This document shows, piece by piece, positions 7,858-12,672 of a stretch of DNA of 12,672 bases. Each line of letters starts with the position of its first letter. The stretch's first letter is position 1. The notes under the pieces are model-generated. The model had not been told where the DNA came from. It worked only from the letters and a program-made list of their open reading frames with translations, and ran no database searches. Made by a program: the position numbers and the translations under genes. The DNA comes from an uncultured Lachnospiraceae bacterium (GTDB lineage: Bacteria; Bacillota; Clostridia; Lachnospirales; Lachnospiraceae), in NCBI GenBank assembly GCA_902783735.1, contig CACZSE010000014.1:1-12672 (forward strand), written 5' to 3'.

Positions 7858-9546
7858 TCATTTTGCCAGATATGCGGCTATCACATCCCAAACGGAGCTG
7901 TTTTCAAAGCCAAGCTTCCACTCGGCTACACCCGCCAGATTATGGCTGTCCATAACGCTCAGTTTTGCAGCGATAGATTCATTGTCCTCAAGCCATACCT
8001 GATAATCGATGCCATTCATGGTCTTTTCGCCATAATTCTGACAACATTCTTCATCCCATGTAGTTTCTATGCCATTTTCCTTAACAAAATCAATGGCGTC
8101 CACCATACCGAGTGTATCACAGGATACATCTCCGCCATTCGTCTTCCATACTCTGGTATAGAAAGGAATAGCATTTATCACCTTTTCTGACGGTACATCC
8201 TTTAAAGTCTGCTCTATTCCGTCAAGAACATACGGAAGCGACGCAACCGAACCTGCAACTCCGCCGCTGCCCCAGTGTTCATCATATCCCATGATGATAA
8301 CGTAATCGGCTACAACACCCTGTTCTTTCCTGTTATAGTGTGTGGTAGATTCTCGGGGTACGTAATTATCCACCGAAAGGACAAGACCGTTTGCCCTGCA
8401 GGCTACTGACATTTCACGTATGAACTGCACATAATGCTCTCCGGCTTCATATGATATCTGTTCAAAGTCGAGATTAATCCCGTCTGCTCCTACCATAAGA
8501 AGGTCATTTACCAGATTATTTACAAGCTTTTCTCTGTTTGATGTATAAGACATAAGCTCAGCAGTATTTACATCGGAACTGAAATTATCCAAAAGGGCCC
8601 ACACTTCCATTCCTTTGCTATGAGCTTTTGCCACATAATCGCTGTCAGCAAAGCTTGTATAATTACCGGTGTTATCGGTAAGCGAAAACCATGTGGGTGA
8701 AATAACATTTATCCCCTTGGTTTTGGCCGTATATTCATCAAATGTATCATTTCCCGCTTTGGTGTATATGGCGTGCCATGCAAGATTAATCTTATAGTCC
8801 CTATGGATCGAAGAATACTGAGGCTCCTCAAAATCAGTTTTAGCCACCTTCTGCACTGTGGTTTCGTTTTCGAGGAACTTGTTTTCTATATAACCCATGA
8901 GAGAATCATCGGTCTTAACCTTTGTCCATGTGTCCATTTTATCCAGTATAACAACGGTTTCTCCCTTATTTACTTCACGAAGGATGGGGCTTTTTATACC
9001 GCCCTTGTATCTTACGGCATTATCCTTGTTAACTGTTGCCACAGTCTGCTCTTCCCATGTTGTATCCAATTGGATACGAAGAGGATCTTCAAAAAGGGTA
9101 TAATCAAATTTTGTGAATTTAGCTACATAGTCCAACGAAACGTATATCGTTTCATTTTTTAAAACCGTTATCGGCTTGGTAAAATCAACTTCACCATTAC
9201 TTACATAATACGTATTCTCACCAAGTTTGGATTTGATAACATCATCCGGTGTCGTATATATGAGCCAGTTCTCATTTCTATCGATATAAAACCTGTCGTT
9301 AAGCAATTCCGATACCGAATCAAAATCCAGATATACGCTTCCTTCGATCAGCTTAGCTTTGGTATCAAGCTTGTTGTCCTGCAAAATGATCGCAACATCA
9401 TCGGCTGCTTCAATACCGAAATATTCGTTCAGATCCTGCTTTTCTTTTGAATATGAATACTTCTCAATATACTGAGAAACAACTATCCCCCCGCCTATAA
9501 GTATGATCAAAATGATCGCGATCAATGTTGGTATAAATTTCTTCAC
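7858..9546 (-). CDS. Membrane-anchored glycosyl hydrolase family 18 protein with SH3-like domain
   Basis: 562-residue surface protein. After MKK, residues 5-24 form one hydrophobic segment with no lipobox, so it is probably a signal anchor holding the rest outside. Residues about 50-165 look like a stalk resembling the copper amine oxidase N-terminal-type domain (VYLDFDSVSELLN, ETIYVSLDYVAKF). Residues about 170-228 resemble a bacterial SH3 domain (KGETVVILDKMDTWTKVKTDDSLMGYIENKFL) that would bind cell wall. From about 250 the GH18 barrel follows, with MVGADGINLDFEQI at 351-364: Asp355, Asp360 and the acid Glu362 are present, while one Asp of the DxxDxDxE consensus is Asn358, as in YaaH/SleL-like peptidoglycan enzymes. 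WKLGFENSSVWDVI closes the barrel. Cleavage of peptidoglycan or another N-acetylglucosamine polymer is likely; the substrate is not proven. The start is GTG at 9546-9544 with AAGGGGG upstream. It probably heads the operon leading to prmA. Confidence 0.88.
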   Translation of the reverse strand: MKKFIPTLIAIILIILIGGGIVVSQYIEKYSYSKEKQDLNEYFGIEAADDVAIILQDNKLDTKAKLIEGSVYLDFDSVSELLNDRFYIDRNENWLIYTTPDDVIKSKLGENTYYVSNGEVDFTKPITVLKNETIYVSLDYVAKFTKFDYTLFEDPLRIQLDTTWEEQTVATVNKDNAVRYKGGIKSPILREVNKGETVVILDKMDTWTKVKTDDSLMGYIENKFLENETTVQKVAKTDFEEPQYSSIHRDYKINLAWHAIYTKAGNDTFDEYTAKTKGINVISPTWFSLTDNTGNYTSFADSDYVAKAHSKGMEVWALLDNFSSDVNTAELMSYTSNREKLVNNLVNDLLMVGADGINLDFEQISYEAGEHYVQFIREMSVACRANGLVLSVDNYVPRESTTHYNRKEQGVVADYVIIMGYDEHWGSGGVAGSVASLPYVLDGIEQTLKDVPSEKVINAIPFYTRVWKTNGGDVSCDTLGMVDAIDFVKENGIETTWDEECCQNYGEKTMNGIDYQVWLEDNESIAAKLSVMDSHNLAGVAEWKLGFENSSVWDVIAAYLAK

Positions 9547-9705: not shown

Positions 9706-9939
9706 CTAAGCAAACCCGTAATGACTTTTATCAGCGTTTCCATACCAGATCTCTTTTATCTCACCGTTCATGTTTTTTACGATGAACTCGGGAACGTAAT
9801 TTGATTCCTCATGTACTCTCTGCTCTTCAATAATGTCCTGCGGTGATACCTGCACTCCACTTTTGAAGATCAGGACTCCCTGCTCTACCGCTACATCCAG
9901 CATGTTTTTCAAACGGCTGATCCTTTCTTCAATCACCAT
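9706..9939 (-). CDS. Uncharacterised 77-residue protein
   Basis: I do not recognise a family. The protein is hydrophilic with no signal peptide or membrane segment, so it is probably cytoplasmic. Residues 1-22 (MVIEERISRLKNMLDVAVEQ) look like an amphipathic helix. QVSPQDIIEEQRVHEE (29-44) suggests a second helix, and the C-terminal part (PEFIVKNMNGEIKEIWYGNAD) suggests a small beta hairpin. There are no cysteines and no known catalytic motif. It is likely a real gene because AGGAAGG precedes the ATG at good spacing, a stop codon (TGA) lies just upstream in frame, and codon use resembles the neighbours. No terminator is visible after it, so its transcript may run into the GH18 operon. Its own promoter may be the one at 10311-10340, which would give a leader of about 365 bases. 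Confidence 0.7.
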   Translation of the reverse strand: MVIEERISRLKNMLDVAVEQGVLIFKSGVQVSPQDIIEEQRVHEESNYVPEFIVKNMNGEIKEIWYGNADKSHYGFA

Positions 9940-10471: not shown

Positions 10472-11257
10472 TCAATCGTCATGATGCTCTTTATAATCCG
10501 TTTCGATATTATCTTTGGCTCTGCGTTCTTTAATTCCCTTAAGAATAACCTTTTTCTTTTCGATCGCAGTCTGTTTATCCATCGGCGGAACATCCTTAAG
10601 TTTGTAATCTATCCCAAGACTTTCATATTTAGGTTTTGCCATATCATGATACGGCAAAACGTCCAGTGCCTTAAGATTGTGAAGCCCACCAATAAAGTAT
10701 CCGAGTTTTTCAAGATATACATCATCATCCGTTATCCCGGGTACTACCACGTGACGGATCCATACATCTACATTTTTAGCTTCCAGATATTTTGCAAATG
10801 CCAATATACCATCATTGGGCTGCCCGGTAAGCTCAAGATGCTTTTGCGGATCAATATGCTTTATGTCCAGCATCACCAGGTCCGTCATGGTCATAAGTTT
10901 ATCGAGTTTTTCATTGTATGCCGTGTTTTGAGGCTTATAGGTTATTCCTGACGTGTCTATACATGTATGAATATTGTCTTTTTTAGCCAGAGAAAACAGT
11001 TCTAAAAGAAAGTCTATCTGGAGTAACGGTTCTCCTCCTGTCACCGTTATTCCTCCATCCTTATAGAACCCTTCGTTACGCCGATACTGCTCTATGATAT
11101 ATGATGCTTCATACTCTTCACCTGCGTTTACTGCCCATGTATCAGGATTGTGACAGTAAGCACATCTCATCGGACACCCCTGAAGAAAAACAACATATCT
11201 TACTCCCGGTCCGTCTACTGTACCAAAACTCTGCAAAGAGTGAATCTTCCCTTTCAT
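10472..11257 (-). CDS. pflA: Pyruvate formate-lyase activating enzyme
   Basis: Radical SAM enzyme that installs the glycyl radical on pyruvate formate-lyase by abstracting a hydrogen from the glycine. It has 261 residues with the start chosen here (E. coli PflA is 246). The cluster motif is Cys28-x3-Cys32-x2-Cys35 in LQGCPMRCAYCHNPDTW. The GGEP SAM-binding motif is at 74-77, preceded by the usual SFGTVDGPGVRYVVF. LDIKHID (130-136) and VWIRHVVVPGITD (165-177) are also family-typical. The last 20 or so residues are a charged tail beyond the usual end. The start is ATG 11257-11255: GGAGG lies 5 bases upstream, and an in-frame TTG at 11269 overlaps that ribosome site and is rejected. Its target here is most likely Gly55 of the separate 80-residue radical-domain protein upstream. 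A terminator hairpin lies between them. Confidence 0.95.
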   Translation of the reverse strand: MKGKIHSLQSFGTVDGPGVRYVVFLQGCPMRCAYCHNPDTWAVNAGEEYEASYIIEQYRRNEGFYKDGGITVTGGEPLLQIDFLLELFSLAKKDNIHTCIDTSGITYKPQNTAYNEKLDKLMTMTDLVMLDIKHIDPQKHLELTGQPNDGILAFAKYLEAKNVDVWIRHVVVPGITDDDVYLEKLGYFIGGLHNLKALDVLPYHDMAKPKYESLGIDYKLKDVPPMDKQTAIEKKKVILKGIKERRAKDNIETDYKEHHDD

Positions 11258-11279: not shown

Positions 11280-11312
11280 TCAAAAAGGGACCGGCCGCAA
11301 GACCGATCCCTT
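11280..11312 (-). terminator. Intercistronic terminator or attenuator between PFL genes and pflA
   Basis: On the minus strand AAGGGATCGGTC pairs with GGCCGGTCCCTT around the loop TTGC: 12 pairs, two of them G-U, followed by TTTTTG. It lies 14 bases after the stop of the radical-domain gene and about 25 bases before the pflA start. Partial termination would make the activase far less abundant than the enzyme, which fits its catalytic role. Confidence 0.85.
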
Positions 11313-11326
11313 ACTCTTAATACTGA

Positions 11327-11569
11327 TTAGATTGACTGATGGAATGTACGAGAGATAACATCTGCCTGCTGTTCAGGTGTTAACTTAATGAAGTTAACAG
11401 CGTATCCTGAAACACGGATTGTAAGCTGAGGATAGTTCTCAGGATGTGCCTGAGCATCCAAAAGAGTTTCTCTGTTAAGTACATTTACATTAAGGTGGTG
11501 TCCACCTTTTGTTGCATATCCATCAAGTAATGAAACAAGATTGTTGATCTGAGCTGCTGCTGCTGCCAT
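11327..11569 (-). CDS. Separate glycyl-radical domain of pyruvate formate-lyase (GrcA-like, split PFL subunit)
   Basis: 80-residue protein equivalent to the last ~75 residues of [19 protein letters not shown] (24-39), [15 protein letters not shown] (46-60) and the C-terminal [11 protein letters not shown] align with the E. coli PFL end; Gly55 in RVSGYA is the radical glycine (Gly734 in E. coli). Ahead of the homologous part is a short Ala-rich start (MAAAAAQ) encoded by a GCA/GCT run (11553-11566). It resembles GrcA/YfiD, which replaces the oxygen-cleaved radical domain of intact PFL. Here, however, the large PFL ORF upstream lacks this domain, so it should be an obligatory subunit rather than a spare. 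It has an excellent ribosome site (AAGGAGGT, 7 bases before ATG). It lies 26 bases after the 68-residue gene and is followed by a terminator, then pflA. An in-frame start and its own ribosome site argue against sequencing error. Confidence 0.92.
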
Positions 11570-11595
11570 AATCTTTACCTCCTTATTAATTTAAT

Positions 11596-11802
11596 CTAAT
11601 GAAAATCATCCAATCCGTCATGAAGTGTCGGAACGCTGCAAGCCAGAGGAGTTCTTGAACAATCGGTACATCCCATGGTCTGAACTTCTTTGGTCGACTC
11701 TGACTGAGCTTCATCGACATCTACATTGACATGTCCAACACCGTTTGCCATTCCGGCATCTAACTGTGCTACCAAATCATCTATCATGCTCTTCTGATCC
11801 AT
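11596..11802 (-). CDS. 68-residue PFL-associated protein: radical-domain-like N-terminus plus cysteine tail
   Basis: I know of no described family. Residues 7-29 (I-DDLVAQLD...GHVNVDV) align without gaps to residues 8-30 of the neighbouring radical-domain protein, with about 10 of 23 identities including the LD and the HxNVxV strand. The homology then stops: there is no [12 protein letters not shown] and hence no radical glycine. Instead residues 40-68 contain MGCTDCSRTPLACSVP, with Cys45, Cys48 and Cys55, and end in an acidic HDGLDDFH. The CxxC pair could bind metal or act in thiol chemistry. The ATG has AAAGGAG at 6 bases spacing, and the gene sits in the 38-base/26-base gaps between the PFL catalytic part and the radical domain. 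Possible roles, all inference: placeholder or chaperone for the radical-domain pocket, radical quencher, or protection of the enzyme from oxygen. Confidence 0.8.
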   Translation of the reverse strand: MDQKSMIDDLVAQLDAGMANGVGHVNVDVDEAQSESTKEVQTMGCTDCSRTPLACSVPTLHDGLDDFH

Positions 11803-11840
11803 ATCGCGCTCCTTTCTTCAATCGGTTATTTAATCAATAA

Positions 11841-12672
11841 TTATTTGTTAAGGTCGATCTCAATATCACCTGCAAATACCTGGTCTTCTTTTCCAAGAGC
11901 ACCCGGAATGATGGTGAATGTATTTGAGATACCATCCTGTGAGTGGTTGAACGGAAGCTTTGATACTGATGAAAGTGATGCTACTGCACCATGAGTATCA
12001 CGTCCGTGCATCGGGTTAGCACCGGGAGCGAAAGGCTGACCTTTCTTACGTCCGTCAGGTGTGTTACCTGTAGCCTTACCGTATGTTACGTTTGAAGTAA
12101 TTGTAAGAACTGACATTGTCGGGAATCCGTCTCTGTATGTATGATGTCTTCTGATCATTGTCATGAACTTCTTAACGAGGTTCTTAGCGATCTCATCAGC
12201 TCTGTCATCATCATTACCATATTTCGGGAAGTCGCCTGTTGTCTCGAAGTCAACGATCACGCCGTCCTCATCTCTTATGCACTTAACCTGAGCATACTTG
12301 ATAGCTGAGAGTGAGTCTGTAACAACTGAGAGTCCTGCCATACCTGTCGCGAAGTAACGAAGAACATCTCTGTCATGAAGAGCCATCTGAGCTCTCTCAT
12401 AGCAATACTTGTCATGCATGTAGTGGATAACATTAAGAGTGTTAACATATACGTCTGCAAGCCACTCCATCATATCCTCATATTTAGCCATTACATCATC
12501 GTAGTCAAGGATATCACCTTCTACAGGACGATACTTAGGACCAACCTGCTTCTTGGTAACTTCATCAACACCACCGTTTAATGCATACAGCAAGCACTTA
12601 GCAAGGTTAGCACGAGCTCCGAAGAACTGCATCTGCTTACCGATTACCATTGAAGATACGCAGCAAGCGATA
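11841..12672 (-). CDS. pflB: Pyruvate formate-lyase catalytic part, ending before the radical domain (N-terminus beyond window)
   Basis: Catalyses pyruvate + CoA to acetyl-CoA + formate. Only the C-terminal ~276 codons are in the window. The reading frame is open to the edge and starts [21 protein letters not shown], so the catalytic cysteine pair (Cys418/Cys419 of E. coli) is encoded at 12660-12665. [61 protein letters not shown] and [18 protein letters not shown] follow the E. coli enzyme closely. The protein then ends in [12 protein letters not shown] and a TAA at 11843-11841, at about E. coli residue 680, where the intact enzyme would continue into the glycyl-radical domain. That domain is encoded two genes downstream. 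The break falls between the barrel core and the radical domain, and the terminal 12 residues do not match PFL. It therefore looks like an evolved split rather than a fresh nonsense mutation. The start lies outside the window. Confidence 0.93.

Follow-up and report, generated by a model that had tools for sequence, protein, structure and literature searches.

The window, meaning the whole stretch of DNA analysed here, is the entire contig CACZSE010000014.1 (C14, 12672 bases) of an uncultured Lachnospiraceae bacterium whose genome is 77% complete. On its minus strand the C-terminal piece of a pyruvate formate-lyase (PFL), a 68-aa ORF, an 80-aa glycyl radical ORF and pflA follow one another in this order. 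The PFL piece comprises the C-terminal 276 residues of the large chain (11841..12671, minus strand; PF02901, 268.6 bits; TIGR01255 positions 401-665). Its frame is open at the 5′ end at the contig edge, holds the adjacent active-site cysteines that are a feature of PFL (IACCVSS, Cys-Cys pair at 12660-12665), and is terminated ahead of the radical domain by a TAA ending at 11841, with 13 residues between GALGKED and the stop. Being cut by the contig edge, the piece scores 440 bits against TIGR01255 (curated cut-off 994.2); the split large chains of relatives reach about 1060-1159 bits. The N-terminal part of a PFL lies at the end of another contig of the same genome (C58), and this gene probably continues there. 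Contigs are broken inside PFL near profile position 400-416 both here (C14) and in genome G049 (C22/C58); the conservation of the active-site region may have misled the assembly.

The 68-aa ORF (11596..11802, minus strand), termed the companion, opens with a copy of the radical domain's beginning, followed by a linker and the tail GCTDCSRTPLACSVPTLHDGLDDFH; a ribosome site AAAGGAG was read from the sequence at about 11809-11815 on the same strand. The 80-aa ORF (11327..11569, minus strand) carries RVSGYA, matches PF01228 with 83.1 bits, and is preceded by a ribosome site of its own, AAGGAGGT, at 11577..11584 (minus strand, likewise read from the sequence). Against the GrcA3 model NF038360 (cut-off 158) the whole ORF scored 158.5 bits and the six-frame search gave 157.3, just below; the cut-off of the GrcA/YfiD model TIGR04365 (170 bits) was missed with 102 bits. 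The Pfam Gly_radical profile (106 positions) is divided between the two proteins, positions 1-51 falling in the large ORF and 51-106 in the small one. Further downstream lies pflA for the PFL activating enzyme (10472..11257, minus strand; TIGR02493, 286.9 bits against a cut-off of 231.75), with its start ATG (11255-11257) picked by eye. A GC-rich hairpin followed by U's (11285..11312, minus strand; -20.7 kcal/mol, z -3.8) sits between the radical ORF and pflA as a possible terminator, at which a transcript of the first three genes may stop. The consensus terminator scan of the window did not list this hairpin, and the promoter/terminator consensus scan returned no more matches than chance. A 77-aa ORF of no assigned kind (9706-9939, minus strand) is found between a long ORF (7858-9546) and pflA.

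The frame end, the Cys-Cys pair, the radical ORF and its ribosome site had all been placed correctly in the original prediction, which read the locus as a PFL divided into a catalytic and a radical protein and suggested that the radical protein might be swapped after oxygen damage and made in excess. The division is borne out, exchange and excess synthesis would be possible consequences of it, and the cysteine companion lying between the two had been overlooked.

To follow the arrangement across genomes, named genomes were scanned and 414 places encoding relatives of the 68-aa protein were obtained, of which the best 80 were used; almost all are from Lachnospiraceae. The large chain, the 68-aa ORF and the radical ORF occur in the same order and on the same strand at 78 of these 80 loci, and the two incomplete loci end at contig edges (L059, with the gap in the large chain; L069, with the gap in the radical ORF). 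A large PFL ORF was present at 79 of the 80, and in none of the 79 did its frame contain the radical motif. A separate radical ORF was likewise present at 79 of 80, the radical glycine being kept in every one; the motif is R[VI][SA]GY in 78 and RLSGYA in the remaining one (L070). pflA was seen at 59 of the 80 loci. The anticipated natural split, with the radical glycine on a separate protein and with conserved gene order, thus holds in these loci. The same break is conserved across relatives, which rules out a sequencing error or frameshift. Of 1762 candidate relatives of the 68-aa protein, 1761 passed E<=0.001; the radical ORF had at least 7999 relatives. Among 11 pairs compared, dN/dS did not exceed 0.055 in the large chain (value obtained for 10 pairs), 0.147 in the companion (8 pairs) or 0.089 in the radical ORF (10 pairs). 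The low values in all three indicate working genes under purifying selection.

Some variation was noted around these loci. The order is large chain, radical ORF, companion at L210 (G811), and the split large chain of L213 (G851, 247-2385) has an extra in-frame TAA near codon 292, which is either an error or real. Of the named loci, 45 span 10 kb or more, and 31 of these (for example L010, L012 and L014) encode, upstream on the same strand, a MecA-family protein (PF05389), which we take to be a ClpC adaptor; the count covers split-PFL loci alone. The genome studied here also has one, upstream of the PFL part on C58 (L200:4151-4978).

Going by its NCBI name, 'autonomous glycyl radical cofactor GrcA3', the 80-aa protein would be no more than a spare part, with the large ORF as a decayed PFL. 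The companion was found in 78 genomes, 76 of which had a TIGR01255 match at E<=1e-100. A full-length one-chain TIGR01255 PFL was not found in 73 of these 76 relatives; their TIGR01255 chains stop at about 663-706 of 744 or are fragments, rows extending far beyond 670 being read through a stop. The other three genomes (G237, G112 and G222) have a full-length chain besides the split form. No full-length PFL was seen in the genome of the window, which is 77% complete. The 80-aa protein is thus unlikely to exist for the repair of an intact PFL of this type, and the purifying selection on all three genes also speaks against a spare part and against decay. At least 25 genomes have a second separate radical ORF on a different contig, which favours the spare-part reading to that extent and could itself be a true spare. 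On balance, a spare part beside a decayed PFL is highly improbable. The 80-aa 'GrcA3' protein is most likely an obligate PFL subunit, and we consider it very likely that PFL is here a two-chain enzyme with its radical glycine on a separate protein. More distant glycyl radical enzymes (GREs) occur in such genomes, so formate-lyase activity could also come from elsewhere; the genome of the window has one (G000:C161:1-4664, L202), with an activase-like ORF behind it. Unlinked second radical ORFs without a PFL were observed at L219, L224 and L226 (G287, G123 and G230), beside ORFs that look like spoIIIAA and spoIIIAB.

The companion is built of a segment resembling the radical subunit, a linker and a cysteine tail. 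An hhalign comparison (E 5e-6, 30 columns) shows this segment to be homologous to the radical subunit over the latter's first 30 residues, and the copied part is the first helix and strand of the radical domain. No Pfam family was matched by the 68-aa protein at E<=0.1, and no PDB entry at E up to 10. The pattern C-x2-C-x6-C is present in 90 of 114 distinct collected sequences, one of the 114 being a wrong hit; the residues invariant in 15 diverse companions include two cysteines, a G-H and a proline. Benzylsuccinate synthase and 4-hydroxyphenylacetate decarboxylase have small cysteine-bearing partners too, and these bind metal and control the opening of the enzyme for activation. A companion acting in the same way, as a small subunit with Fe-S or zinc, would account for the three-cysteine pattern. 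The Fe-S small subunits of GREs have enough conserved cysteines for a four-Cys cluster, whereas the diverse companions keep two only, at varied spacing, which is too few for such a cluster. The companion further differs from those subunits in having two to three conserved cysteines together with a segment copied from the radical domain. A metal-binding role is therefore improbable in our judgement.

Within the family, the companion profile found a match in 78 genomes out of 298. Three weak matches (G049:C117, G083:C7 and G223:C56; E 1e-4 to 5e-4) were left uncounted, and no PFL was seen in the stretches read around them; at two of them (G049:C117 and G223:C56; L180 and L182) the small companion-like ORFs lie away from any PFL and have no usual Cys motif. 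The companions of L163, L164 and L168 (G009, G282 and G019) stop after CTDCAK/CTTCSQ, without the ACxxPT part. Two matches among 398 genomes of the phylum, both from Lachnospiraceae, had suggested a companion limited to this family; divergent companions in other families (L210, L212 and L214) rule this out.

Split PFLs lacking a companion were found to carry cysteines in another form. The matches listed included 16 split PFLs negative for the companion; in every one the large chain continues into a tail with two or more cysteines, mostly in a similar Cys..Pro-Thr/Asn..acidic pattern. Where a companion gene is the neighbour (24 large chains), no cysteine occurs at that place. Ten split PFLs from outside the family, among the matches listed, comprised five with a tail, three with a companion and two with neither. 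In total 48 split loci were read: 21 with a tail, 24 with an adjacent companion, one with a distant companion (G235, about 370 kb from the split PFL on the same contig) and two with neither, so that 46 of the 48 have the Cys element in one form or the other. Many of the 24 adjacent-companion loci had been picked via the companion, so that the sets of 16 and of ten provide the fairer test. Judged by coordinates alone, G001 and G250 also have their companion on another contig than PFL. A survey of the junction in 120 proteins gave 88 tails with at least two cysteines, 26 with none and one with a single cysteine; three had no readable junction, and two were flagged as one-chain although their tails look split. 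Neither tail nor companion was found at the split loci L217 and L218, and the element is thus not indispensable everywhere. The cis tails are without the copied helix and strand. Filling of a slot cannot therefore be the function common to both forms, and the shared function must be that of the cysteine tail.

The history of the split was examined on a tree of 71 PFL cores from which the tails had been removed. A first tree had left out 23 PFL rows (22 one-chain, one split) whose core end was unmatched by the pattern, and 10 of these (nine one-chain, one split) were taken back in the tree of 71. All split PFLs except L217 fall in one clade of 54 rows (support 100/99), which also contains six one-chain PFLs. 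Five of the six form a clade of their own (100/100), with no junction cysteine and with no companion found at E<=0.001; the sixth, L199, retains an insert rich in cysteines at the very position of the split. The Cys element is thus missing in five of the six nested one-chain PFLs. The junction pattern failed for about half of the one-chain PFLs, so 'no junction cysteine' rests on the remaining rows and on C-terminal ends; two ordinary one-chain PFLs (L115 and L193) have one cysteine each, outside the junction segment or beyond its cut. A topology holding the 48 split rows together without the six one-chain PFLs, a grouping defined after the first tree, was rejected (p-AU 0.002). The radical domains of the five are 2 to 7 identity points nearer to separate radical subunits than to other one-chain PFLs, and with the GrcA3 model the six score 147-162 bits against at most 141 for other one-chain PFLs among the matches listed. 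Re-fusion of the two chains is the simplest reading of these relationships between sequences. The alternative is that splits arose several times independently, and L217 looks like such a case. To explain the tail and companion forms, the tree requires 8 changes. Together with the tree placement, this indicates that the Cys element accompanies the split and has moved between cis and trans forms. A functional tie of the element to the split is accordingly likely.

A conserved Cys pair tied to a radical enzyme could also serve to deactivate it, the cysteines quenching the glycyl radical or reducing the active-site cysteines under oxic conditions, and not guarding the site. One-chain PFLs would need this equally, yet are without the Cys element; we consider such a role more doubtful still than metal binding. 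The guard or placeholder function is ranked first among the jobs of the element, and an activation adaptor second.

Structure models were built from joined chains. In the first, the L198 large chain was followed by the companion, with the stop codon rendered as glycine (alignment of 36 rows). The companion segment formed a helix (690-706) and a strand (711-717), with block pLDDT of 77, 64 and 49. Residue 717 of this model, where the trimmed alignments end, is paired with 797 of CutC and 849 of hydroxyphenylacetate decarboxylase, close to where these two enzymes have their radical-domain strand. The Cys tail is disordered (pLDDT 25-27), and the model thus gives no placement near the active site. 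The second model joined the large chain, companion and radical subunit of a relative (37 rows, including one-chain PFLs). It superposes 737 residues on E. coli PFL 7-759 with an rmsd of 2.3, in support of a two-chain PFL. The pLDDT of the companion drops to 26-47 once the radical subunit is added; the one-chain PFLs are in the second alignment alone, which makes the comparison of the two models uneven. These joined chains with shallow alignments are weakly consistent with mutually exclusive docking of companion and radical subunit. Foldseek and VIA matches were GREs and class III RNRs, as expected of a PFL chain.

The two-part enzyme shares with E. coli PFL (PflB; TIGR01255; PDB 2pfl) the catalytic core, the Cys-Cys pair, the radical-domain sequence and the modelled fold. 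The E. coli enzyme is one chain of 759 residues, whereas here the radical domain is separate and is joined by a cysteine companion. A free-standing glycyl radical domain is shared with GrcA/YfiD (TIGR04365) and GrcA3 (NF038360). PMC8683613 describes YfiD as a protein of 127 residues, disordered in its N-terminal half, that repairs damaged intact PFL; the protein described here has 80 residues, and an intact PFL of this type is mostly missing from the genome (73 of 76 relatives). The same source reports that E. coli PFL cut at 695 shows no measurable YfiD binding and 32-fold less radical, is active once activated, and that residues 696-733 are the recognition element for YfiD. The poor binding and activation reported there for the cut enzyme imply that a split PFL with nothing added is hampered in both, and by analogy the Cys element may solve this problem. 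The companion or tail might do so as an activation adaptor, a detached counterpart of the 696-733 stub that recruits the radical piece, presents it to PflA and stays bound. The recognition role of the stub in E. coli and the homologous segment with which the companion starts both favour this role; the cis tails are without that segment, and the joined model with the radical subunit leaves the companion unplaced. We hold the adaptor to be unlikely, though less so than metal binding or deactivation.

Parts of the system are already known: the 80-aa protein is GrcA3 in NCBIfam (NF038360), and chains ending at the split are in the PDB. The chain of PDB 38la ('Formate acetyltransferase') ends at SLGKED, like split PFLs without a Cys tail (the large chain of L217 ends SLGKDD), and PDB 38lb (same name) continues past ALGK into GECDMCEM, like Cys-tailed split PFLs. 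Both chains stop at the split or shortly beyond it, so that large chains of this kind are already available to others. PDB searches matched neither a companion nor a radical subunit of this type. In the open-access PMC literature, no paper on a natural split PFL, GrcA3 or the companion was among the matches listed; the four passages of PMC11528403 that use 'split' refer to EPR splitting. The NCBIfam model and the two PDB entries make the arrangement less novel than was first supposed.

Taken as a whole, we propose a two-part PFL with a replaceable radical subunit and a Cys element that holds or guards the empty slot, an explanation whose chances we regard as evenly balanced; its two-part PFL is strongly supported, and the role of the Cys element is our inference, to which the modelling lends weak support. 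The large chain would bring the active-site cysteines without a C-terminal radical domain, and the 80-aa subunit would provide the missing helix, strand and glycine loop. PflA would install the radical on the 80-aa subunit, so that oxygen would destroy a cheap, replaceable piece. While the radical subunit is unbound, the copied helix and strand of the companion would occupy the slot, the cysteines of the element would guard or sense the exposed active site, and the companion would yield to a fresh radical subunit. We infer association, activity, exchange, guarding and hand-over of the subunits. A more far-reaching joint claim would make this a swap-in/swap-out GRE: a Cys placeholder would cap the radical-free enzyme, shield the active-site cysteines under oxygen and be displaced at anoxia, the guard having shifted repeatedly between separate protein and tail and having usually been lost in re-joined one-chain enzymes. 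This is offered tentatively, as a possibility that is rather less probable than the proposal above.

Among the fermentation enzymes of gut anaerobes PFL has a central place, and oxygen is known to cleave it at the radical glycine. As judged from sequence, the PFL of many gut Clostridia is divided between two proteins, nearly always accompanied by a Cys element as a gene of its own or as a tail. These results suggest a correction of annotation, with GrcA3 as an obligate subunit, and expose a large family of nameless small cysteine proteins with a defined partner, the split PFL. A split of this kind throughout a lineage, which confines the vulnerable part to a small subunit, would give the enzyme an inherent answer to oxygen cleavage, and the split PFL makes the oxygen recovery of such anaerobes directly testable.
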